A DNA stretch of 64,000 nt from Henricia sp. BOLD:AAB3569 (lineage: Eukaryota; Echinodermata; Asteroidea; Spinulosida; Echinasteridae), in the NCBI GenBank assembly GCA_037783545.1, contig JBBELK010001433.1, positions 26,999 through 90,998 of the forward strand, read 5' to 3'. Numbering within the stretch: position 1 is the first letter of the stretch; each line of letters begins with the position of its first letter. The notes below the pieces were generated by a model. The model searched no databases, was not told the DNA's origin, and worked only from the letters and a program-made list of their open reading frames with translations. Both the position numbers and the translations under genes were made by a program. Shown in pieces: positions 35,461 to 64,000 of the stretch.

Positions 35461-36922
35461 ATTGGTACAAATGCAAAGCCTAGAAGAGTTAAAGGCAGTA
35501 TACATCATTGGTAAGCCCTTACAAACAGTGTCATATAGTGTCATCTTCCTGTATGAATAAAGATATGCATTATTAAAACCAACCTCAGTAAAATCTAGCT
35601 CCATACCTCGTCAAACTTTTGAGAAAACGGTGAAAAACCGTGTCGTTTTTCTTCCGAAATTGTGTGAAACAAAATGTCGAGGCGAGTTTTTGTACTAGCG
35701 CCCTCTTGCGATAAAATACATTACTGCAGGGATAAGCAGGCACTGTTTCATGTTTACGTAGTTTCTTCTAATACAACAGCCGTTTGATATGTGCGCAAAT
35801 CAAGTACTGTTTTTTTTGCCCCACCAACGGGCCATATTTTTTTACCGAGCATAACAAAAAGCACCTTTAATTGATTCATTAATTTCACGAAGCAAACTTG
35901 TGCGAGTCTAGTCACTAAGCAAGTGCCATGGCATACGGCGCTGGTGTTCAAGGGACTATCTCCGTTGTTCGAGGGACTCTAGGCGACTATAATCGCTTGA
36001 TCAAAGTTGTTAAGCTGCTAAAACAACCTCATACTCACTATCATTCGTTCTCATTCTATATCAGCATCGTCCGAATCTATTGCCCTGAGTACGAGGTCGA
36101 GCTGTCCGGAAAAATACATAGACTTGTTCCCATTCCCTATGTAGTCTACAGGATGGCGATCAGTCTAGAAAATGTGAGGCGGTGTTGCAATAGAGGGCGC
36201 CGTTTTAGCTGCCGCAGGGGGAAAAGGATTGACGCGCATGCTTGAAATCGACGCGCTCGCGGACCAGAGACTGAACGTTTTTTGGTTTTTTTTAGCCTTA
36301 ATACAAGGAAAATATTTAGGTTCCAATTTCTTGTTAATCTTTTTATTTCATTCCTGATTATTAATTGCTTTCCGTGACGTAGAACATACGGGAATGTTTA
36401 GTGGTCAACGGTCATGCACGCGCCACTAGACGCACATGGGCACGCGTAAAATATACTCATCAGCGTACGTTCGTTCGAAGATGCGGCACGAGCGCATTGC
36501 AATACGTTTAAATTATTGAGCATGCACTGCAGCTTGTAAAAACGAAGGTGCTTTTGCTTGATCACAATTTTTAGCCTGAAGAAATACATTTTTATCTTTA
36601 TCGATACAACAGCCACGGCGCAACAACATAAAGCAAGTAACCAAGGTAAGTGCAACCAATGTGCTTTTTTGGCCGGTTATTAATCGAGCCACGTGGGACA
36701 TGAAAAATTACCACCAAAATGGTGGATGGAAGGGGTGACGTCACCGGAAAGCAATCAATACAAGGTTGCTGTTATTAAAGTACATGTAATCTGCAAAGTT
36801 CCAAGGACCTGTTATTCATGAGGCTTGTCATAAGTCAGAAGTTTACATACATGTACACCACTACCATCATCACCCAAAATGGTAAACAGGACTACCCGAA
36901 CCATTGCAAGGTGTGCAAGCTA

Positions 36923-47399: not shown

Positions 47400-48431
47400 A
47401 TGTATCGTATTAAGTGTAATGTTGGTGTCCAATTCGGTTCAAATGTAACTTTGCGTACAACGTCCACACAAGTTGAGAAATTTACACCTACTTACAATCG
47501 CTCTCTGCCATCGTCCTCCCGCGTCATGACGTACGAGGATTTACTTTTTAACGTTTTGTGGTCAAAAGAGTCAACAATGCAGTGGTGCGTTGAGCACAAC
47601 CTCATCGTCAAGTCGGCATCATGCTCGGTATGCCTCTCACCAATGGAGCTTTGCTCTACACAAGACAGGCTAGACGGTCTGCGCTGGGAATGCCGCAAAC
47701 GAATTGATAGAAAAAGGCACAGAGTTTCCTCCTCCATCAGAGCGTCTTCATGGTTTTCTCAAAGCAACCTTTCTATCGAAGAAACGCTTAAATTTACGTA
47801 CCTGTGGTGCATGGGTCTCGATCAACAGCAAATTCGGATGCAGCTCCGTTTGAGTCCAAACACTAGCGTTGATTGGGACATGTTTTGCCGTGAATCCTGC
47901 GACGTCGTGATCTCACGCCACATTGACCAACTTGGAGGTCCGGGGAAGAGAGTTCAAATTGACGAGTCAAAGATAGGCAAACGGAAGTATCATAGAGGTC
48001 ACAGGGTCGAAGGGCAATGGGTCTTTGGTGGCATCGAAGAAGACTCAAGAAAATGCTTCATAGTGTGCGTGGATAGACGCGACGAAGCAACATTAATCCC
48101 ACTCATTCAACGGTGGATCGCGCCAGGCACTACAATAATCTCTGACTGCTGGAAGTCATACTCCACACTGTCAAAAATAGGCTACCAACACGAAACGGTC
48201 AACCATTCCAAGGAATTTGTAAATGCCGAGGGCAGTCACACCAACAAGATTGAGGGACACTGGCGTCAACTTAAAGCTAGCTTACCAACGCATGGAAGAC
48301 GCAAGGCCCACTATGATTCCTATCTGGCAGAATTTTTGTATCGCTATATGCATCGCGAGGAGGACATTTTCACCAAATTCATTACTGACATCGCCACTAT
48401 TTACAATCCAAACTCGGCACTAACAACTTAA
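47400..48431 (+). CDS. ISXO2/IS1595-type DDE transposase (Merlin-like)
   Basis: Intronless, 343 residues, ATG after 'ttcaac' and a TAA stop. N-terminal zinc-ribbon-like cysteines (C75, C78, C85, C98), a basic stretch, then a helical region (ASSWFSQSNLSIEETLKFTYLW). The catalytic domain shows D188 in VQIDESKIGKRKY, D249 in IISDCWKSY and E285 in HTNKIEGHWRQLK, the order and spacing of ISXO2-like transposases known from bacterial IS1595 and eukaryotic Merlin elements. The reading frame and catalytic triad are intact. It cuts and joins transposon ends in the nucleus. An imperfect inverted repeat follows 37 bp after the stop. No matching terminal repeats were identified for a stand-alone element. 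Confidence 0.88.
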   Translation: MYRIKCNVGVQFGSNVTLRTTSTQVEKFTPTYNRSLPSSSRVMTYEDLLFNVLWSKESTMQWCVEHNLIVKSASCSVCLSPMELCSTQDRLDGLRWECRKRIDRKRHRVSSSIRASSWFSQSNLSIEETLKFTYLWCMGLDQQQIRMQLRLSPNTSVDWDMFCRESCDVVISRHIDQLGGPGKRVQIDESKIGKRKYHRGHRVEGQWVFGGIEEDSRKCFIVCVDRRDEATLIPLIQRWIAPGTTIISDCWKSYSTLSKIGYQHETVNHSKEFVNAEGSHTNKIEGHWRQLKASLPTHGRRKAHYDSYLAEFLYRYMHREEDIFTKFITDIATIYNPNSALTT

Positions 48432-50391: not shown

Positions 50392-52637
50392 ATGGCTCAT
50401 GCTAAACTTTCCAAACAGCGCGAGGAAACGTGGTGCTCTCTGCACAAAAGATTAAGCTCGATGGAGTTCGACCTCCAAGGTGTTTTTCCACAACCGGTCG
50501 CAGATTATGTAAACACACAGTCAGACAGCATCAGCACGTGCCCTGGGTATGTTTTGTCTTGCATCCTCACCACTGTGTGTTTCGTCATTGGACTTCAGTG
50601 CGACATACAGCTTCCCCACGGCCACAAACAGAAGACAAACATGTTCAACATCTTCGTTGGACCTCCATCTACTGGAAAAAGCCAGGCTATCAGAGCTATG
50701 ACCACCGACCCTCTCCTACATATTTTTCGACAAAAGGACTTAACCAATACAATCTTCAACAAGTGCACCCCGGCAGGACTAGGGAAAAAACTTTCTGAAA
50801 ATAAGAACGGTTTCATCGTAAGCGCTGAAATTTCAGACTCGCTCATGAGAATCACAAGAAATGATGACTCGGATCCTGCCTTACTTTGCCAACTATTTTC
50901 CGGGGAACCAGTAAATTTCTCTTTCGCCACCAAGGATGACAACTCTATACCGGCGTTTATACCATTTTCCATTCTTGGTGCGATCCAAATGCAACCGGCT
51001 GCGATACTTTTCTCATCATTCAATAAGGGGCAAGGTCTTTTGGACAGATTTTTGATTAATGTACCACGATGTCTCCGTCCAAATCCTGAGGTCACATTGG
51101 CAGCACAGCACAGAATTCAAGAACACAACTTCACTTTTTCAGATTTAATGTCTAAGATGTACGACAATCTGGGTGCCATTAATGCATTTACATTCAACGA
51201 CGAAGCTAAAGAACGGCTGGCAGAAATAAACAAAAACGTCACTGCCGACATCAATGAAGCTATCAATAACGGCACCATCCCTCCGAAATCGAAAACGTTC
51301 GATTTTCTAGTTAGACTAGCACCTGCCATCCACGTTTTTGTACATACGTGTTCAGATTTTCTACAGGGACAAGTTGAAATACAACCTCCTCCAACCGAAA
51401 TCGACCTTTCAAGCTTGAACGCGGCACTTGCCTATGTAGACCACTGCGAGGCACAAAAAACAGTCTTTATGCAGGTAAGTTTTGGTTATTTATTAAACAT
51501 ACGGTTGCATCCAAACCTTATATATGTAGGTCTATTAGGCGCAATCTTCATGCTAACGAAATTGTTGTATTTGCACAAGCAAATTTCAATATTCGCAGGC
51601 AAAATTTGAAATTTACTTACTTCGTAAAATTGAGCACCAAATTTAAAACGGCGCTGGGCCTGTCGCTTACGTCACGTCCAATTGAAGGGCAAGTCTAATG
51701 TGCGGTCATTTCGATATTTCTATTATTTAAACAAACTTAACCAAAGCGAGGCTTGTAAAATACATTAAAATTTGTTTAATTTGTATATCACAATATCACA
51801 CGAGTTGTACGCTCAAAATGAGAGCACGACGCGTTTGAAATTTTAACTTTTAAGGACAGGCTCGTCTACAATGCGCGCGCGCAAAAATAGGGCCACGAAA
51901 TACGCAGCTCCATAACTAAGACATGGAGCTGCGAATTTATTGCCACCTTATTGGCGCGCCCGCGCATTGTTTACGAGCCTGTGCCTTTAAAGGAACAGGC
52001 GACAATTTTAATATTGCTTTTTAAAACTTAACCCAGGCTGGTCAGCAATACCCGCACGACAATTAATGTCACGAAATACCCAGCTCAATACACAGCAACA
52101 TTATGGGTTTTTTTTTGTTAAACTAATTTTTTGGTTCACGCATTGATGACGACCATTGTTTTACATTAAAAGTGTTAAACTGTTTATTACCCCATTTCAT
52201 CTATTAATTTGTCCTTACCAACACAGGTTATAGACAGCATGCTGACTCCAGTCATGGAAGAAGTCCGTCTGCAACCTGTTCAAGAAGACTTGGTCAGAGC
52301 AATACTACTATTCCCGGGAAAACTTGTCACTTTCAGAAGCTTTGTCACATCTGGACCAAGAAACCTACGGCAAAGTAACAAGGTGGAGTTTGAATCGGCC
52401 ATTGGCAAGACTCCTGCTTACGGAAAGATCGTCACCGTCCGGGTTCCGCGATCAAAGCCAGTCACGGTATTCCTGAAGAAGCATCCCGACAATATCGCGG
52501 ACTGGGAAATTGTCGACCAAGATGTGTATACGGCACGTTTCCAATCGTCATGCCACGCCAAAATATCACTAAATGTGCGGGAGGCGGTGATCCAGCAAGA
52601 ACGCTTACCAGATGGTTATTTCAACATCGTTGCATAA
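50392..52637 (+). CDS. DUF3987-like P-loop ATPase, two exons
   Basis: Exon 1 50392-51474 and exon 2 52227-52637 join in phase 0 (ATGCAG|gtaagt ... acacag|GTTATA) to 497 residues. Exon 1 has a Walker A GPPSTGKS at 90-97 after FNIFV, a Walker B-like strand GFIVSAEISDS (140-150), FSILGAIQMQPAAIL (192-206) and GQGLLDRFLINVP with a candidate arginine finger R219. This order is typical of the DUF3987 helicase/primase-associated ATPases of phages and mobile elements. Exon 2 looks like a winged-helix end (VQEDLVRAILLFPGKLVTFRSF, VEFESAIGK). The intron carries a MITE of the same family as one in VPS11, so the gene is resident in this genome. Lies between the ISXO2 transposase and the inverted array. 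Family call is from motif memory; function is inferred. Confidence 0.72.
51850..51990. mobile_element. TTAA hairpin MITE, copy 2
   Basis: TTAA-bounded near-palindrome related to 27993-28131 (core 'cgcagctccat' / 'atggagctgcg'), inside the intron of the DUF3987-like gene. Confidence 0.7.
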
Positions 52638-54061
52638 ACTTTCCAATGACAGACATAGGCCTTTGAACGTTTCCATTCATACATTTTGTAATACCCTTTG
52701 TCGTGTTTGTGGGGGGAAGAGTGACGCAAACACACAGCATTTTCAAATCGAGTAAATTGGCAAAACTTAACATGGAGTTGTAATTTTATCAGAGAACAAT
52801 GAGTGTTATGAAGTTTCGAGTGCTCACTTTTGCTTATTTCAAGGGGAAGAGGTAGTGCTTGCAGAAAATATTCTACGGTACCGGTGCGGTCCAGCAATGC
52901 TCAATCGGCAATTGTTTTATCGTGGATTAGCAACCACTTGTTGTTTGATCAATGTGCCGTATGTGAAACATTGCGGACCCGAATTCCTTTAGATATTTAT
53001 TTTTTGAAAATCTTTTGTATAGAGTGCTTGAAACCTTGGGTTAATTTTCGGTTCTATGTGCAGATTGTATTTACCCGTAAGGCAACAAGTCTCGTATAAT
53101 GACTTATTGGTTTATTTTGGGCTATGGCTTTTATCGTATGGCCGCAATTCCTTTAAGGTTCTTTTTTAAGATGGCTTGGCTCAAACGATAACCCATGTAT
53201 GCCCGTGTCTTTAAGTTTTTAAGTAGGTTCTTTTTGTGGATGTTATACTATTAAATGCCGTTCACGGGAGTGTACTATGTACACCTTTGCAAAGATGGAT
53301 TCACCAAGCGCTTTTTTAGAATTTTGGCTTTGCCTTTTAGATTTTTCCTCAAAATCCGTTAAGCGTCCTGAGCGAATCCTTATTGCTGTCATTTTCATAG
53401 TTTAATTGTTTTTTGTTTTAACAGATCTGTCGCAGTCTCTTGGTCTATCAATTAATTGTGGTTTTTATTTACTGGTGATAGGACTCAAAGAGACGCGATG
53501 TCTGGACATTTGCAGTTTTACCACAATGGGGGTTCTCATCATGTCTGTCAATAAGCTCCTAACTTTGTTACGCTGTTTGTCGCGGGATCTTTGAATTTCG
53601 GTTTGGTCAGCGGCTATATTGACAAGACATGTGTCCCCCATTTGTAGAGAATTCATAATTTTCACCGGTAAGAATATGCTGGCCCGCCAGATTTAGTTTT
53701 TTTGTTTGTGGGGGTATCCAGGCATATTTTCTGTGTAATTGCACGTCATCAGTTCCGGTATTTCGTTTTCTTTGCTTTCAAGCCATTTCTGGCTTTTGTG
53801 CTTGTAATTTGGACTACGTGATAGGCTTCAACCTTAGGTTGTTATTTTCATAACATTATTTTGTTATCTCTATCACAGAAGTTCAATTACACACATCATA
53901 CCTGTTAACAAGAGGTATGGAATTTGTAAAGCGATCAATTTCCTAAATGTATAAGGATTCTGTTTGTTTGGCCGGGAAGTTATCTGACCACATTAAAAGA
54001 AGAGATTTGTGTTCGTAATTTTAGGCCTGAATGAACTCATACTCTTTCTTGAACATGTGGT

Positions 54062-54077
54062 GGCTCTGAAAAGAGCC
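54062..54077 (-). promoter_or_regulatory. Histone-type 3' stem-loop (inverted copy)
   Basis: Reads GGCTCTTTTCAGAGCC on the minus strand, with CAAGAAAGA at 54051-54043. Confidence 0.85.
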
Positions 54078-54104
54078 GTTTGGTTTATTTTTTTCTTCCA
54101 AGCC

Positions 54105-54534
54105 TCATCTGTGTCCACTCCTGGCTCGGTGTCGTCCCGCGTTGCGTTCGGCCGACTCTGATTGGATCTGGAAAACCCGGTGAGCGCGTTCTTTCTCCCT
54201 GTTGCTGGGAATATTTTGCGAGAGCAGGCCGTTTCCTGCTGCTTTGGCTTGGGCCAGTTGTTCCTCAACCGCGGAGAGCCTGGACTCAAGTTGGTTTAAT
54301 ACGAGTCGTCCCAGTTCCGCAGAACACGCTGCAATTTTCCCTTTCCATGAGATTATCATCTCTGGGTTGCAGTCAATGTCCAGTGGTAGGGACGGAATGT
54401 TTTTGCGTATTTTTAACCAACCAGGGCATTCGCCACGGTTGAGGGACGTTCTGAGTTGTTCCGCTTGGTACCGGACTCGATTCCTCAAGTCGGCCGCGCG
54501 GAACACCTCTCTGCCGGCGCGTTTAACCCAGCTT
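54105..54534 (-). pseudogene. 5'-truncated copy of the 213-aa histone-end gene (inverted)
   Basis: Encodes SWVKRAGREVFRAADLRNR onward to the normal end ...RARSGHR with stop, followed on the minus strand by the stem-loop at 54077-54062 and the downstream element at 54051-54043. The promoter and first ~70 codons are missing. Confidence 0.85.
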
Positions 54535-54535
54535 T

Positions 54536-54697
54536 GAGGAACAACTGGCCCAAGCCAAAGCAGCAGGAAACGGCCTGCTCTCGCAAAATATTCCCAGCAA
54601 CAGGGAGAAAGAACGCGCTCACCGGGTTTTCCAGATCCAATCAGAGTCGGCCGAACGCAACGCGGGACGACACCGAGCCAGGAGTGGACACAGATGA
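54536..54697 (+). pseudogene. 5'-truncated copy of the 213-aa gene (forward)
   Basis: Only the last ~50 codons (EEQLAQAKAAGNGLLSQN to the end), with stem-loop at 54725-54740 and CAAGAAAGA at 54751. Promoter absent. Confidence 0.85.
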
Positions 54698-54724
54698 GGC
54701 TTGGAAGAAAAAAATAAACCAAAC

Positions 54725-54740
54725 GGCTCTTTTCAGAGCC
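54725..54740 (+). promoter_or_regulatory. Histone-type 3' stem-loop
   Basis: GGCTCT-TTTC-AGAGCC followed by ACCA, with CAAGAAAGA at 54751-54759, after a truncated gene copy. Confidence 0.87.
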
Positions 54741-56328
54741 ACCACATGTTCAAGAAAGAGTATGAGTTCATTCAGGCCTAAAATTACGAACACAAATCTC
54801 TTCTTTTAATGTGGTCAGATAACTTCCCGGCCAAACAAACAGAATCCTTATACATTTAGGAAATTGATCGCTTTACAAATTCCATACTCTTGTTAACAGG
54901 TATGATGTGTGTAATTGAACTTCTGTGATAGAGATAACAAAATAATGTTATGAAAATAACAACCTAAGGTTGAAGCCTATCACGTAGTCCAAATTACAAG
55001 CACAAAAGCCAGAAATGGCTTGAAAGCAAAGAAAACGAAATACCGGAACTGATGACGTGCAATTACACAGAAAATATGCCTGGATACCCCCACAAACAAA
55101 AAAACTAAATCTGGCGGGCCAGCATATTCTTACCGGTGAAAATTATGAATTCTCTACAAATGGGGGACACATGTCTTGTCAATATAGCCGCTGACCAAAC
55201 CGAAATTCAAAGATCCCGCGACAAACAGCGTAACAAAGTTAGGAGCTTATTGACAGACATGATGAGAACCCCCATTGTGGTAAAACTGCAAATGTCCAGA
55301 CATCGCGTCTCTTTGAGTCCTATCACCAGTAAATAAAAACCACAATTAATTGATAGACCAAGAGACTGCGAAAGATCTGTTAAAACAAAAAACAATTAAA
55401 CTATGAAAATGACAGCAATAAGGATTCGCTCAGGACGCTTAACGGATTTTGAGGAAAAATCTAAAAGGCAAAGCCAAAATTCTAAAAAAGCGCTTGGTGA
55501 ATCCATCTTTGCAAAGGTGTACATAGTACACTCCCGTGAACGGCATTTAATAGTATAACATCCACAAAAAGAACCTACTTAAAAACTTAAAGACACGGGC
55601 ATACATGGGTTATCGTTTGAGCCAAGCCATCTTAAAAAAGAACCTTAAAGGAATTGCGGCCATACGATAAAAGCCATAGCCCAAAATAAACCAATAAGTC
55701 ATTATACGAGACTTGTTGCCTTACGGGTAAATACAATCTGCACATAGAACCGAAAATTAACCCAAGGTTTCAAGCACTCTATACAAAAGATTTTCAAAAA
55801 ATAAATATCTAAAGGAATTCGGGTCCGCAATGTTTCACATACGGCACATTGATCAAACAACAAGTGGTTGCTAATCCACGATAAAACAATTGCCGATTGA
55901 GCATTGCTGGACCGCACCGGTACCGTAGAATATTTTCTGCAAGCACTACCTCTTCCCCTTGAAATAAGCAAAAGTGAGCACTCGAAACTTCATAACACTC
56001 ATTGTTCTCTGATAAAATTACAACTCCATGTTAAGTTTTGCCAATTTACTCGATTTGAAAATGCTGTGTCTTTGCGTCACTCTTCCCCCCACAAACATGA
56101 CTGAACCCTCCCCCGGTCCCCGACCGGCGGTCGAAGATGTGTGCAATTGTATCTTTGAGACCCAAAAGGGACTCAAATGATCCACGTCAGCGTATAATAA
56201 ATTATCAAAGAATTGTGCAAAACTTAAACAGATGGGGGTAACCCAAACCATGGCACAAACAAGCTAAGGTAAAGCAGTTAGGGGCAACGAGTGAAGTACT
56301 AAAATATGGTATGCGCCGGTTGCTCTAG

Positions 56329-56415
56329 CCAATCAGAACTCAATGTGAGTCACCTCCCCCAAAATCAACGACAGGGGAGGTTATTTAAACCCCACTGGCA
56401 GAGCAAACGGAGTCA
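56329..56415 (+). promoter_or_regulatory. CCAAT/TATA promoter of the 213-aa gene, unit A
   Basis: CCAATCAG at 56329-56336, a CCTCCCC / GGGGAGG inverted pair at 56353-56380, TTATTTAAA at 56381-56389 and a possible start at TCATACC (56413), about 30 bp downstream and about 32 bp before the ATG. The layout resembles replication-dependent histone promoters. Confidence 0.6.
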
Positions 56416-56444
56416 TACCGCTCACTGATCAAACCAAATCTAGA

Positions 56445-57086
56445 ATGGATTCTGATAGTGATCTAATCTGTCCGCCTACTCCTGGTCGAGATATGGAGGA
56501 TTTCCCGATGAGTAGCGACGAAGACGACGCAATCCCCTGCGGCCAGCGGCAACCTCGAGGGAGTCCCAATAGCCAAGAACAAGACGGGACACCGAGGGCG
56601 CCGCCACGGTCAAGACAAAGCAAGCCGAGGCGGATCAAGCTCACTCCTGTTGCCCAAAGCTGGGTTAAACGCGCCGGCAGAGAGGTGTTCCGCGCGGCCG
56701 ACTTGAGGAATCGAGTCCGGTACCAAGCGGAACAACTCAGAACGTCCCTCAACCGTGGCGAATGCCCTGGTTGGTTAAAAATACGCAAAAACATTCCGTC
56801 CCTACCACTGGACATTGACTGCAACCCAGAGATGATAATCTCATGGAAAGGGAAAATTGCAGCGTGTTCTGCGGAACTGGGACGACTCGTATTAAACCAA
56901 CTTGAGTCCAGGCTCTCCGCGGTTGAGGAACAACTGGCCCAAGCCAAAGCAGCAGGAAACGGCCTGCTCTCGCAAAATATTCCCAGCAACAGGGAGAAAG
57001 AACGCGCTCACCGGGTTTTCCAGATCCAATCAGAGTCGGCCGAACGCAACGCGGGACGACACCGAGCCAGGAGTGGACACAGATGA
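56445..57086 (+). CDS. 213-aa non-histone protein in a histone-style gene, unit A
   Basis: Intronless. ATG follows a ~32-nt leader behind CCAAT and TATA-like boxes. The N-terminus is acidic (MDSDSDLICPPTPGRDMED, MSSDEDDAIPC), then a basic Arg/Ser/Pro stretch (PRSRQSKPRRIKL), a central segment with SWVKRAGREVFRAADLRNR and CPGWLKIRKNIPSLPLD, then a heptad-like helix (LGRLVLNQLESRLSAVEEQLAQ) and a basic end. No histone fold and no family I know. The stop is followed 27 nt later by a canonical histone stem-loop and downstream element, so the mRNA is predicted to be non-polyadenylated and S-phase regulated. A charged DNA- or RNA-binding, possibly dimeric protein is inferred. The copy at 58835 has the same translated sequence. 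Confidence 0.78.
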   Translation: MDSDSDLICPPTPGRDMEDFPMSSDEDDAIPCGQRQPRGSPNSQEQDGTPRAPPRSRQSKPRRIKLTPVAQSWVKRAGREVFRAADLRNRVRYQAEQLRTSLNRGECPGWLKIRKNIPSLPLDIDCNPEMIISWKGKIAACSAELGRLVLNQLESRLSAVEEQLAQAKAAGNGLLSQNIPSNREKERAHRVFQIQSESAERNAGRHRARSGHR

Positions 57087-57113
57087 GGCTTGGAAGAAAA
57101 AAATAAACCAAAC

Positions 57114-57129
57114 GGCTCTTTTCAGAGCC
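57114..57129 (+). promoter_or_regulatory. Histone-type 3' stem-loop, unit A
   Basis: GGCTCT stem, TTTC loop, AGAGCC stem, then ACCA. This is the metazoan replication-dependent histone mRNA consensus bound by SLBP. It begins 28 nt after the last base of the stop codon. Confidence 0.9.
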
Positions 57130-57139
57130 ACCACATGTT

Positions 57140-57148
57140 CAAGAAAGA
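57140..57148 (+). promoter_or_regulatory. Histone downstream element, unit A
   Basis: CAAGAAAGA, 10 nt after the stem-loop; the sequence and spacing match the U7-snRNA pairing site of invertebrate (sea urchin-type) histone genes. Confidence 0.85.
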
Positions 57149-58718
57149 GTATGAGTTCATTCAGGCCTAAAATTACGAACACAAATCTCTTCTTTTAATG
57201 TGGTCAGATAACTTCCCGGCCAAACAAACAGAATCCTTATACATTTAGGAAATTGATCGCTTTACAAATTCCATACCTCTTGTTAACAGGTATGATGTGT
57301 GTAATTGAACTTCTGTGATAGAGATAACAAAATAATGTTATGAAAATAACAACCTAAGGTTGAAGCCTATCACGTAGTCCAAATTACAAGCACAAAAGCC
57401 AGAAATGGCTTGAAAGCAAAGAAAACGAAATACCGGAACTGATGACGTGCAATTACACAGAAAATATGCCTGGATACCCCCACAAACAAAAAAACTAAAT
57501 CTGGCGGGCCAGCATATTCTTACCGGTGAAAATTATGAATTCTCTACAAATGGGGGACACATGTCTTGTCAATATAGCCGCTGACCAAACCGAAATTCAA
57601 AGATCCCGCGACAAACAGCGTAACAAAGTTAGGAGCTTATTGACAGACATGATGAGAACCCCCATTGTGGTAAAACTGCAAATGTCCAGACATCGCGTCT
57701 CTTTGAGTCCTATCACCAGTAAATAAAAACCACAATTAATTGATAGACCAAGAGACTGCGAAAGATCTGTTAAAACAAAAAACAATTAAACTATGAAAAT
57801 GACAGCAATAAGGATTCGCTCAGGACGCTTAACGGATTTTGAGGAAAAATCTAAAAGGCAAAGCCAAAATTCTAAAAAAGCGCTTGGTGAATCCATCTTT
57901 GCAAAGGTGTACATAGTACACTCCCGTGAACGGCATTTAATAGTATAACATCCACAAAAAGAACCTACTTAAAAACTTAAAGACACGGGCATACATGGGT
58001 TATCGTTTGAGCCAAGCCATCTTAAAAAAGAACCTTAAAGGAATTGCGGCCATACGATAAAAGCCATAGCCCAAAATAAACCAATAAGTCATTATACGAG
58101 ACTTGTTGCCTTACGGGTAAATACAATCTGCACATAGAACCGAAAATTAACCCAAGGTTTCAAGCACTCTATACAAAAGATTTTCAAAAAATAAATATCT
58201 AAAGGAATTCGGGTCCGCAATGTTTCACATACGGCACATTGATCAAACAACAAGTGGTTGCTAATCCACGATAAAACAATTGCCGATTGAGCATTGCTGG
58301 ACCGCACCGGTACCGTAGAATATTTTCTGCAAGCACTACCTCTTCCCCTTGAAATAAGCAAAAGTGAGCACTCGAAACTTCATAACACTCATTGTTCTCT
58401 GATAAAATTACAACTCCATGTTAAGTTTTGCCAATTTACTCGATTTGAAAATGCTGTGTCTTTGCGTCACTCTTCCCCCCACAAACATGACTGAACCCTC
58501 CCCCGGTCCCCGACCGGCGGTCGAAGATGTGTGCAATTGTATCTTTGAGACCCAAAAGGGACTCAAATGATCCACGTCAGCGTATAATAAATTATCAAAG
58601 AATTGTGCAAAACTTAAACAGATGGGGGTAACCCAAACCATGGCACAAACAAGCTAAGGTAAAGCAGTTAGGGGCAACGAGTGAAGTACTAAAATATGGT
58701 ATGCGCCGGTTGCTCTAG
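57149..58718. other. Spacer of the 2390-bp unit
   Basis: AT-rich, no convincing gene. A 66-codon frame (57526-57726) is preserved between units but has no family resemblance. Short hairpins occur, for example CATACCT...AGGTATG at 57272-57294. The 'ccccccacaaaca' word near 58479-58491 marks the unit position where the array ends on both sides. Confidence 0.6.
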
Positions 58719-58805
58719 CCAATCAGAACTCAATGTGAGTCACCTCCCCCAAAATCAACGACAGGGGAGGTTATTTAAACCCCACTGGCAGAGCAAACGG
58801 AGTCA
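58719..58805 (+). promoter_or_regulatory. CCAAT/TATA promoter of the 213-aa gene, unit B
   Basis: Same elements as in unit A, shifted by 2390 bp: CCAATCAG at 58719 and TTATTTAAA at 58771. Confidence 0.6.
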
Positions 58806-58834
58806 TACCGCTCACTGATCAAACCAAATCTAGA

Positions 58835-59476
58835 ATGGATTCTGATAGTGATCTAATCTGTCCGCCTACTCCTGGTCGAGATATGGAGGATTTCCCGATG
58901 AGTAGCGACGAAGACGACGCAATCCCCTGCGGCCAGCGGCAACCTCGAGGGAGTCCCAATAGCCAAGAACAAGACGGGACACCGAGGGCGCCGCCACGGT
59001 CAAGACAAAGCAAGCCGAGGCGGATCAAGCTCACTCCTGTTGCCCAAAGCTGGGTTAAACGCGCCGGCAGAGAGGTGTTCCGCGCGGCCGACTTGAGGAA
59101 TCGAGTCCGGTACCAAGCGGAACAACTCAGAACGTCCCTCAACCGTGGCGAATGCCCTGGTTGGTTAAAAATACGCAAAAACATTCCGTCCCTACCACTG
59201 GACATTGACTGCAACCCAGAGATGATAATCTCATGGAAAGGGAAAATTGCAGCGTGTTCTGCGGAACTGGGACGACTCGTATTAAACCAACTTGAGTCCA
59301 GGCTCTCCGCGGTTGAGGAACAACTGGCCCAAGCCAAAGCAGCAGGAAACGGCCTGCTCTCGCAAAATATTCCCAGCAACAGGGAGAAAGAACGCGCTCA
59401 CCGGGTTTTCCAGATCCAATCAGAGTCGGCCGAACGCAACGCGGGACGACACCGAGCCAGGAGTGGACACAGATGA
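58835..59476 (+). CDS. 213-aa non-histone protein in a histone-style gene, unit B
   Basis: Second complete copy of the gene at 56445, exactly 2390 bp downstream, with the same translated sequence and intact promoter and 3' signals. The unit then diverges: past about 59677 the spacer is rearranged and joins the right terminus of the array. Its preservation argues either for very recent duplication, gene conversion or selection on the protein; a comparison of copies in other genomes would be needed to choose. Confidence 0.78.
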   Translation: MDSDSDLICPPTPGRDMEDFPMSSDEDDAIPCGQRQPRGSPNSQEQDGTPRAPPRSRQSKPRRIKLTPVAQSWVKRAGREVFRAADLRNRVRYQAEQLRTSLNRGECPGWLKIRKNIPSLPLDIDCNPEMIISWKGKIAACSAELGRLVLNQLESRLSAVEEQLAQAKAAGNGLLSQNIPSNREKERAHRVFQIQSESAERNAGRHRARSGHR

Positions 59477-59503
59477 GGCTTGGAAGAAAAAAATAAACCA
59501 AAC

Positions 59504-59519
59504 GGCTCTTTTCAGAGCC
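59504..59519 (+). promoter_or_regulatory. Histone-type 3' stem-loop, unit B
   Basis: GGCTCTTTTCAGAGCC, 2390 bp after the unit A copy, followed by ACCA and CAAGAAAGA at 59530-59538. Confidence 0.9.
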
Positions 59520-60685
59520 ACCACATGTTCAAGAAAGAGTATGAGTTCATTCAGGCCTAAAATTACGAACACAAATCTCTTCTTTTAATGTGGTCAGATA
59601 ACTTCCCGGCCAAACAAACAGAATCCTTATACAGTTAGGAAATTGATCGCTTTACAAATTCCATACCTCTTGTTAACACTCATTGTTCTCTGATAAAATT
59701 ACAACTCCATGTTAAGTTTTGCCAATTTACTCGATTTGAAAATGCTGTGTGTTTGCGTCACTCTTCCCCCCACAAACATGACCAAACCGAAATTCAAAGA
59801 TCCCGCGACAAACAGCGTAACAAAGTTAGGAGCTTATTGACAGACATGATGAGAACCCCCATTGTGGTAAAACTGCAAATGTCCAGACATCGCGTCTCTT
59901 TGAGTCCTATCACCAGTAAATAAAAACCACAATTAATTGATAGACCAAGAGACTGCGAAAGATCTGTTAAAACAAAAAACAATTAAACTATGAAAATGAC
60001 AGCAATAAGGATTCGCTCAGGACGCTTAACGGATTTTGAGGAAAAATCTAAAAGGCAAAGCCAAAATTCTAAAAAAGCGCTTGGTGAATCCATCTTTGCA
60101 AAGGTGTACATAGTACACTCCCGTGAACGGCATTTAATAATATAACATCCACAAAAAGAACCTACTTAAAAACTTAAAGACACGGGCATACATGGGTTAT
60201 CGTTTGAGCCAAGCCATCTTAAAAAAGAACCTTAAAGGAATTGCGGCCATACGATAAAAGCCATAGCCCAAAATAAACCAATAAGTCATTATACGAGACT
60301 TGTTGCCTTACGGGTAAATACAATCTGCACATAGAACCGAAAATTAACCCAAGGTTTCAAGCACTCTATACAAAAGATTTTCAAAAAATAAATATCTAAA
60401 GGAATTCGGGTCCGCAATGTTTCACATACGGCACATTGATCAAACAACAAGTGGTTGCTAATCCACGATAAAACAATTGCCGATTGAGCATTGCTGGACC
60501 GCACCGGTACCGTAGAATATTTTCTGCAAGCACTACCTCTTCCCCTTGAAATAAGCAAAAGTGAGCACTCGAAACTTCATAACACTCATTGTTCTCTGAT
60601 AAAATTACAACTCCATGTTAAGTTTTGCCAATTTACTCGATTTGAAAATGCTGTGTGTTTGCGTCACTCTTCCCCCCACAAACAT

Positions 60686-61099
60686 ATTTATTACGTTTGT
60701 ATTTCACACGACTTGTGCACATATATAGTGTACAGTATACAACCATTATTAATCGTCTTTTTTATATTTTTCAAGAACAATTATTGCTTATTTTATGTTT
60801 ATTATTGCGAAAAAAGACTTTTATACACATTCTTATTAATCATCTTTGTCAATTATTAAAAACAACCTTTTCATACTAATCGTCAGATCAACTGATCCGT
60901 TACAAAAAAATCAACACCGTCTCGTTTAAGTGTGTGGGTCAAGAATATTTCAACACATGTCATTCGCACATTTTCATATCTTACTACTCACGGAAGTCAA
61001 TTTCACAGAATTACCAATTGTTTATTGCAACCTGCCGATAATCCTTGTTTGGGGTTTATTGTCTCAAGGCCAAATAGTGCTAACCGTCGATTTACAATT
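60686..61099. other. AT-rich right flank of the array
   Basis: Unique-looking AT-rich sequence between the array edge and the satellite. No gene or terminal repeat recognised; it has no counterpart beside the left edge. Confidence 0.5.
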
Positions 61100-64000
61100 A
61101 CAGCCTCTATTGGGCCCGCGTGACGTGTTTGACTGGAGATCCGCAGATCCGGAGATCCACTCAAAAAAAGAGACCCGATATGGTTAGGGGTCTGGACAGG
61201 GAAATAAATCCCGAGTAGCATTAGGCTGCCGATAACCGACTCGGAAAACTTTCGGGTATTTGAAGATTGTTTTAATAAAGGGAAATAAAGCCAGAGTAGC
61301 ATTCGGTTGCCGATGGCAGTCTCGTATACTATTCCGGCTTTCGGAGATTGTTTTAATAAAGGGAAATAAAGCCCGAGTATACATTCGGCTGCCGATAACT
61401 GCCTCGGACACTTTTCAGGCCTTCGGAGATTGTTTTAATAAAGGGAAATAAAGCCCGAGTAGCATTCGGTTGCCAATGGCCGTTTCGTACAATGTTCCGG
61501 CTTTCTGAGATTTGTTTAATATAGGAAAATAAAGCCCGATTGCCATTCGGCTAACACGATCTGTCGGGCCCGAGTGACGTGTTTGACTGGAGATCCGCAG
61601 ATCCGGAGATCCACTCAAAAAAATAGACTACCTTTGGTGAGGGGTGGGGACAGGGAAATAAAGCCCGAGTATACATTCGGCTGCCGATAACTGACTCGGA
61701 AACTTTTCAGGCCTTCGGAGAATGTTTTAATAAAGGGAAATAAAGCCCGAGCTAGTAGTATTCGGTTGCCGATGGCCGACTCGTATATTCCGGCTTTCGG
61801 AGATTGTTGTAATAAAGGAAAATAAAGCCCGAGAATACATTCGGTTGTCGATGGCACACTCGTATACTGTTCGATCTGCTGGCATTCGGAGTTTGTTTTA
61901 ATAAAGGGAACTGAAGCCAGAGTAGCATTTGGCTGCCGATAACCGCCTCTGAAAACTTTCGGGCATTTGGAGATTGTTTTAATAAAGGAAAATATAGCCC
62001 GAGTACCATTCGGTTGCCAATTGTCGTTTCGTACAATGTTCCGGCTTTCTGAGATTTGTTTAATATAGGAAAATAAAGCCCGATTGCCATTCGGCTAACA
62101 CGATCTATCGGGCCCGAGTGACGTGTTTGACTGGAGATCCGCAGATCCGGAGATCCACTCAAAAAAATATACTACCTTTGGTGAGAGGTGGGGACAGGGA
62201 AATAAAGCCCGAGTAGCATTCGGTTGCCGATGTCCGACTCGTACACTATTCCGGCTTCCGGAGATTGTTTTAATAAAGGAAAATAAAGCCCGAGTATACA
62301 TTCGGTTGCCGATAACTGACTGGGACACTTTTCAGGCCTTCGGAGATTGTTTTAATAAAGGAAAATGAAGTCCGAGTGCAATTCGGTTGTCGAAGGCCGT
62401 CTCGTGTACTTCTTGGGCCATCGGAGATTGTTTTAATCAAGGGAATTAAAAGCCCGAATGCCATTCGGCTAACACGATCTATCGGGCCCGAGTGACGTGT
62501 TTGACTAGAGATCCGCAGATCCGGAGATCCACTCAAAAAAATAGACTACCTTTGGTGAGAAGTGGGGACAGGGAAATGAAGCCCGAGTAGCATTCGGTTG
62601 CCGATGGCCGCCTCGTATACTATTCAGGCTTTCGGAGATTGTTTTAATAAAGGGAAATAAAGCCCGAGTATACATTCGGCTGCCGATAACTGCCTCGGAC
62701 ACTTTTCAGGCCTTCGGATATTGTTTTAATAAAGGGAAATAAAGACCGGGTAGCATTCGGTTGCCGATGGCCGACTCGTATATTCCGGCTTTCGGAGATT
62801 GTTATAATAAAGGAACATAAAGCCCGAGTGTACATTCGGTTGCCGATGGCCGACTCGTATACTGGTCGATCTGCTGGCATTCGGAGTTTGTTTTAATAAA
62901 GGGAACTGAAAGCCCGAGTAGCATCGCGGTTGCCGATGGTCGCCTCGTATACTATTCAGGCTTTCGGAGATTGTTTTAATAAAGGGAAATAAAGCCCGAG
63001 TATACATTCGGCTGCCGATAACTGCCTCGTACACTTTTCAGGCCTTCGGATATTGTTTTAATAAAGGGAAATAAAGCCGGAGTATACATTCGGTTGCCGA
63101 CTGCCGTCTCGTATTCTAGTCGATCTGCTGGCACTCGGAGTTTGTTTTAATAAAGGGAACTGAAGCCCGAGTAGCATTCGGCTGCCGATAACCGCCTCTG
63201 AAAACTGTCGAGCACTATTTGGAGATTGTTTTAATAAAGGAAAATATAGCCCGAGTACCATTCGGTTGCCGATGGCCGCCTCGTATACTATTCCGGCTTT
63301 CGGAGATTTTTTTAATAAAGGGAAATAAAGCCCGATTGCCATTCGGCTAACACGATCTATCGGGTCGAGTGACGTGTTTGACTGGAGATCCGGAGATCCA
63401 CTCAAAAAAATAGACTACCTTTGGTGAGGGGTGGTGACAGGGGAAATAAAGCCCGAGTAGCATTCGGTTGCCGATGACCGCCTCGTATACTATTCCGGCT
63501 TTCGGAGATTGTTTTAATAAAGGAAAATAAAGCCCGAGTATACATTCGGCTGCCGATAACTGCTGTTGACACTTTTCAGGCCTTCGGAGATTGTTATAAT
63601 AAAGGGAAATAAAGCCCAAGTGCCATTCGGCTAACACGATCTATTGGGCCCGAGTGACGTGTTTGACTGGGCGGGCCTTCCGAGGTTGTTTTAATAATGG
63701 GAAATAAAGCCCGAGTAGCATTCGGTTGCCGATGCCCGCCTCGTATACTATTCCGGCTTTCGGAGATTGTTTTAATAAAGGGACATAAAGCCCGATTGCC
63801 ATTCGGCTGCCGATAACTGCCTCGGACACTTTTCGAGCCTTCGGAGATTGTTTTAATAAAGGGAAACAAAGCCCGAGTGTCATTCGGCTTACACGATCTA
63901 TCGGGCCCGAGTGACGTGTTTGACTGGAGATCCGCAGATCCGGAGATCCACTCAAAAAAATAGACTACCTTTGGTGAGGGGTGGGGACAGGGAAATAAAG
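61100..64000 (+). repeat. AATAAAGCCCGAG satellite array with higher-order spacers
   Basis: Diverged monomers of about 80-90 bp, each with 'ttaataaagggaaataaagc', 'cattcggttgccgat', 'cctcgtatactattc' and 'ggctttcggagattgt'. At irregular intervals (about 61110, 61560, 62105, 62478, 63358, 63645, 63900) a spacer with 'cgggcccgagtgacgtgttt' and usually 'gagatccgcagatccgga' interrupts the monomers. Runs off the window end. Long open frames on the minus strand are repeat artefacts. Confidence 0.92.

Follow-up and report, generated by a model that had tools for sequence, protein, structure and literature searches.

We found that the window, the 64,000-nt stretch of Henricia DNA analysed here, contains an insertion at positions 52700 to 60685 that is made up of two tandem full units, inverted and truncated pieces and long inverted ends, and that its ends in the repeat map coincide with those of a related copy on another contig (C666, locus L069). 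The two full units, each of 2,390 bp on the forward strand (54887 to 57276 and 57277 to 59666), differ by a single mismatch. In the first unit, a pseudo-LTR-like repeat (55008 to 56097) is followed on the same strand by a CCAAT box (56329 to 56333, -116 from the ATG), a TATA-like TTTAAA (56384 to 56389, -61 from the ATG) and a single open frame of 213 aa, ORF1 (56445 to 57086), confirming the intronless ORF, its stop and the promoter layout described in the initial annotation. The second unit encodes an identical protein in an open frame (58835 to 59476, forward). Two further pieces were located as ORF1 genome matches, one inverted and retaining residues 68-213 (54108 to 54548, reverse strand) and one retaining residues 159-213 (54530 to 54694, forward strand). 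In the surroundings, ORFs at 47400 to 48431 and 50392 to 51609, a few kb upstream of the insertion, match DDE_Tnp_IS1595 (Merlin-like) and DUF3987, and a degenerate array of repeats, about 81-82 nt per step, adjoins the insertion at 61070 to 63970. Two identical 105-aa ORFs (33021 to 33338 and 35928 to 36245) lie about 2.9 kb apart and are surrounded by further identical ORFs, a recent local duplication.

A histone-type 3' end occupies positions 57114 to 57148, 27 nt past the stop of the intact ORF1. It consists of the stem-loop GGCTCTTTTCAGAGCC (57114 to 57129, forward), the sequence ACCACA, and the purine-rich downstream element CAAGAAAGA (57140 to 57148, forward), the position and make-up of which are as in the host histone genes. 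The stem-loop has a 6-bp stem, a 4-nt loop and conserved flanks, as expected of a histone 3' end, and a covariance-model search with Rfam Histone3 (RF00032) gave 38.1 bits, above the cut-off of 34 bits, thus bearing out the earlier proposal of such an end. The same score was obtained at four window sites, all of them copies of the ORF1 unit: in addition to the first, these are the stem-loops of the second ORF1 (59504 to 59519, forward), of the inverted piece (54062 to 54077, reverse) and of the piece with residues 159-213 (54725 to 54740, forward), each also recovered as a 16-mer match. No other RF00032 match was present in the rest of the window, including its LINE-like reverse transcriptase (RT) and transposase ORFs. 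Allowing up to three mismatches, the 16-mer matched four times in the window versus 0.45 times expected from shuffles, and the exact 16-mer occurred 1446 times genome-wide, with none for the reversed control. AATAAA stands directly 5' of the stem-loop in the window copy, so that tailing may be possible for this copy; the C666 copy has no AATAAA before its stem-loop.

Host histone genes end in C(A)AACCAA, GGCTCTTTTCAGAGCC, AC(C)ACA and AAAAGAGA, and the signal of ORF1 with its flanks matches those of the H1, H2A, H2B, H3 and H4 genes, the comparison that the initial annotation had proposed. Upstream, the host H2A, H2B and H3 genes have CCAAT boxes at -104 to -248 and TATA-like boxes at -54 to -91, with extra upstream matches in some; the scan detected no TATA-like box for the H2A copies on contig C62, H4 and H1, and no CCAAT for H4 and one H1. 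On C62, a long array of stem-loops extends from about 26000 to beyond 266000 with a spacing of mostly about 2,430 bp, and the three loci cut from it (L066-L068) are H2A genes. With respect to the processing machinery, exons of the SLBP domain are present in the genome (PF15247 matches on C95 and C254). Rfam returned no U7 snRNA match in the genome, in a search whose controls were silent too, and a U7 pattern gave one genome match, equal to the reversed control and without the look of a U7 gene.

No Pfam family matched the ORF1 protein at E<=1, in keeping with the view that it is not a histone; none of 251 candidates proved homologous at E<=1, and the PDB gave two weak keratin matches alone (E 0.15 and 0.24). 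In its own genome, ORF1 gave 17 matches on five contigs, one of which, on C666, is intact and 96% identical, so the ORF is not disrupted in all other copies. Comparison with the fuller copies on C666 and C1225 (L070) revealed, at a junction corresponding to 57398/57399 of the window (forward strand), an additional segment of about 2.4 kb that the window copies lack. This segment encodes an RT (ORF2), open over 678 aa in L070 and frameshifted in L069; no RT match was found in the window, and its ORF1 copies are thus RT-less. The order in the fuller copies is ORF1, histone 3' end and RT, and the pseudo-LTR-like repeat lying 5' of ORF1 recurs 3' of the RT, as in the C666 copy. Among the copies read, none of this lineage (lineage 1) had both ORF1 and RT open: in C666 ORF1 is open and the RT broken, and in L070 the RT is open and ORF1 broken.

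The lineage-1 RT scored 23.4 bits against RVT_1, below the cut-off of 29.6, and the RT of a second lineage, described below, scored 38.3 bits, above it; a PDB search with the RT gave no match at E<=0.01. Rfam found no hammerhead ribozyme at E<=0.1 in L069 or L070; this motif is common in Penelope-like elements (PLEs), though not in every one. Among the 120 of 133 RT relatives in the matches listed, at least 10 carry a GIY-YIG domain beside the RT, a combination given as a mark of PLEs in the available portion of PMC11167929. PF01541 (GIY-YIG) was absent from the 677-aa RTs of L070 and L079 in the Pfam search, so the element is not an endonuclease-bearing PLE. In an RT tree of 48 rows, sampled from among the matches listed, both own RTs fell into a supported group of 31, together with 29 GIY-YIG-less rows; none of the rows of this group has a precomputed GIY-YIG domain. 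Pseudo-LTRs and tandem or partial-tandem copies, two further features of PLEs, are both present. Based on the RT behind ORF1, the GIY-YIG relatives, the tree group and the repeat on both sides, the 213-aa gene is ORF1 of a PLE lacking the GIY-YIG endonuclease, and the insertion at 52700 to 60685 is an RT-less PLE derivative; the suggestion that the gene was born from a histone gene unit is not supported. The tandem arrangement of 2.4-kb units noted earlier was confirmed by the two full copies; tandem copies are usual for PLEs (PMC11167929, in the sections available).

A second PLE lineage in the same genome keeps the order ORF1, stem-loop and RT, with an RT about 44% identical to that of lineage 1. 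The lineage-1 RT gave at least 80 genome matches (66 of 528 candidates scored), and the five nearly full-length ones were 43-44% identical. Rfam detected the stem-loop in 11 of 14 upstream regions (L079, L080 and nine of the 12 loci L081-L092); with regard to the three misses, the upstream part of L085 resembles another element, the segment of L089 has apparently been lost, and in L087, the RT of which is 29% identical, the upstream sequence was read and the stem-loop is absent. A complete ORF1 (208-213 aa) is present in L080-L083; it is broken in L079 and reduced to its end in most others, and copies with both ORF1 and RT open exist in this lineage. The lineage-2 ORF1s are 21-23% identical to the window ORF1 and have the motif IPCGQR in common with it (IPCGQG in L082), and hhalign supported homology across the lineages (probability 87, E 3.7e-6, over 139 columns). 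Their stem-loop, GGTCCTTTTCAGGACC, has two pairs changed on both sides and retains the loop and ACCACA. It occurs 126 times genome-wide, with one occurrence of the control, and at least one site (L096) is chance-like, without histone flanks. Upstream of the RT and on the same strand, it was found in 32 of the 66 RT rows, at 26 distinct stem-loops, and the distance to the RT start is 75-121 nt in 26 of these 32 rows and outside that range in the other six. On contig C758, 11 listed lineage-2 stem-loops are spaced at 2802 bp in a tandem array, in which one unit has an open ORF1 of 208 aa and another, over the 971 bases read past its stem-loop, matches the RT only at residues 1-159 and 477-677, in two matches that overlap at the DNA level. 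By eye, CCAAT/ATTGG and a TATA-like string precede ORF1 in a unit of this array, and the other lineage-2 copies looked at do not show this layout.

The signal and ORF1 both bear marks of conservation. In a set of 24 rows comprising histone, PLE, nanos and transposon 3' ends, and including one wrong-strand row (H3_38), the stem was 98.6% paired, versus 91.6% for shuffles and at most 50.7% for slid versions. With that misplaced row in the set, the covariation score exceeded those of all 500 shuffles, although most pair changes on both sides stem from one lineage and further pair types were no more numerous than in shuffles. Between sub-lineages with 55-60% identity in the spacer, a 22-nt core is unchanged. 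For ORF1, dN/dS was 0.33 between the window and C666 copies (eight synonymous and nine other changes) and 0.22-0.56 within lineage 2, values indicating that ORF1 is under purifying selection.

Animal mRNAs ending in the SLBP stem-loop are taught as histone mRNAs, and the initial annotation likewise regarded the signal as essentially confined to histone genes. Since PLEs, a DDE_1 transposase, other units and nanos carry it, this rule appears to fail in the present genome. Among 30 loci cut for the exact 16-mer, a histone ORF precedes the signal in nine (H1, one; H2A, five; H2B, one; H3, one; H4, one), and a tenth, L044, resembles an H2B 3' end without the ORF. Among the remaining loci are a DDE_1 transposase (L058), whose complete histone-type 3' end lies 30 nt past the stop of a short frame and 121 nt past a longer frame; a GIY-YIG PLE (L059), to the 3' end of which L050 and L054, among others, are related; a unit of roughly 180 aa with a stem-loop (L052 and L061); and nanos (L051). 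A dispersed unit (L009-L015), with a weak MULE match below the cut-off (E 0.1), is among the best Rfam histone stem-loop matches. In the PLE 3' ends of L050, L054, L055 and L059, a hammerhead-like core was seen by eye directly before the histone stem-loop; Rfam gave no hammerhead at E<=0.1 in these GIY-YIG PLEs. In both PLE lineages and in the other families, the stem-loop is accompanied by the downstream element.

For nanos, there were at least 150 matches (226 candidates), 144 of them on C376, where a very large tandem array in two orientations extends from about 210700 to 683500 (L074-L078). The nanos protein of this genome has its closest matches in starfish nanos (Patiria, Asterias and Acanthaster among the named ones), with 55-67% identity for the top 13 of 73 matches, which makes an asteroid host very probable. 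Eight nanos loci were cut, and in all seven readable ones the stem-loop lies 20-26 nt past the stop, with the loop TCTC in five; these include all five loci cut from the C376 array, each with a histone-type 3' end and this loop. Outside the array, L072 (C26:2455-2613) and L073 (C201:1167849-1168007) have a canonical stem-loop 26 nt past the stop, and the eighth locus, L071 (C9), had no RF00032 match at E<=1. The array unit L074 also contains three vault RNA matches (RF00006). Viral contigs yielded neither a match to the pattern of stem-loop plus downstream element nor an RT relative. In the titles and abstracts of the open literature, among the matches listed and with subscription papers mostly outside, we found no prior report of a histone 3' end on a transposon or nanos gene.

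These data may be best explained, with a probability of about 0.73, by a model in which ORF1 of the PLE is expressed as a histone-like mRNA, processed by SLBP and U7 and devoid of poly(A), and the RT and the genomic RNA come from uncut transcripts. From 5' to 3', the element has a pseudo-LTR-like repeat, a CCAAT/TATA-like promoter, ORF1, the stem-loop and its downstream element, the ORF2 RT and again the repeat, and ORF1 would form a self-contained histone-like cassette expressed from its own promoter. The host SLBP/U7 machinery would cut the ORF1 transcript behind the stem-loop, and the resulting tailless mRNA may be governed like histone mRNA, in S phase, in the egg and in the early embryo. 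Because the RT lies behind the cut, transcripts escaping it would have to supply both ORF2 and the template RNA for reverse transcription, and the signal would thereby separate the ORF1 message from the genomic RNA. The insertion in the window no longer has the RT part, and its ORF1 units remain in tandem.

The stem-loop has an ORF on either side, and its distance to the RT start in lineage 2 is mostly about 75-121 nt. Rather than a 3' end, it may be a regulatory site at which SLBP binds an uncut bicistronic RNA, acting in ORF1 translation, ORF2 reinitiation, packaging or localisation. The GIY-YIG PLE copies are consistent with this, as closer pairs share sequence for about 60-120 nt past the stem-loop and downstream element, suggesting that the RNA copied there is not the cut form. 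However, both lineages and the other families retain, next to the stem-loop, the U7-type downstream element, which is not needed for SLBP binding alone, and we consider such a site unlikely. Even less probable is a domestication of the tandem ORF1-only units as host genes kept, with a function of their own, in histone-like arrays. Tandem units that are RT-less (window) or lack the RT core (C758) occur in both lineages, but PLEs form tandem copies anyway (PMC11167929, available sections), selection on ORF1 can act through transposition, and the window units differ by one base in 2,390, so that the array may be recent.

The letters and flanks of the signal equal those of the host histone genes, and it might therefore be a passenger from a histone gene, without a role. 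This reading appears already strained by the covariation, and the compensatory changes, the conservation across an RT divergence to 44% identity and the presence of the signal just behind different ORFs in unrelated families leave it very improbable. Pick-up from a neighbouring histone gene was likewise set aside, since unrelated families carry the signal behind different coding ends.

More widely, germline and mobile genes of this starfish lineage could share the histone 3' end as a second, general kind of mRNA end, which most nanos copies and transposons of several unrelated groups would have taken up for storage and translation without poly(A) in the egg and early embryo, or for production in S phase only, and which would serve in PLEs as a switch between ORF1 message and genomic RNA; we regard the odds of this wider proposal as about even. 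Here a retrotransposon gene carries the full histone signal together with covariation evidence, and in the same genome other transposons and nanos carry the signal too. If it is processed, mobile elements may be able to tie their expression to DNA replication or to the egg, bypassing poly(A)-dependent control. Non-histone SLBP targets would escape poly(A)-selected RNA-seq, which makes a search for them worthwhile.

Compared with the 3' end of replication-dependent histone mRNAs (RF00032; SLBP, U7), the element shares the stem, the loop and its flanks, the downstream element and the spacing, but the ORF1 protein is no histone and, in the fuller copies, a second ORF lies 3' of the signal. Penelope/Poseidon-type PLEs, for example PAc of Anolis, resemble it in an RT related to RTs combined with GIY-YIG, in pseudo-LTR-like repeats and in tandem or partial copies, and the available portion of PMC11167929, which describes such tandem copies, does not mention a histone-type 3' end between ORFs. 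In contrast to these PLEs, the Henricia RT contains no GIY-YIG, ORF1 is separate, and a histone 3' end lies between ORF1 and ORF2. The endonuclease-deficient Athena/Terminons of rotifers are like the Henricia element in that no GIY-YIG is found, extra ORFs lie beside the RT and copies form head-to-tail arrays. They attach to telomeres, which was not seen for the Henricia element, and the accessible part of PMC6431247, which deals with them, does not mention a histone signal.
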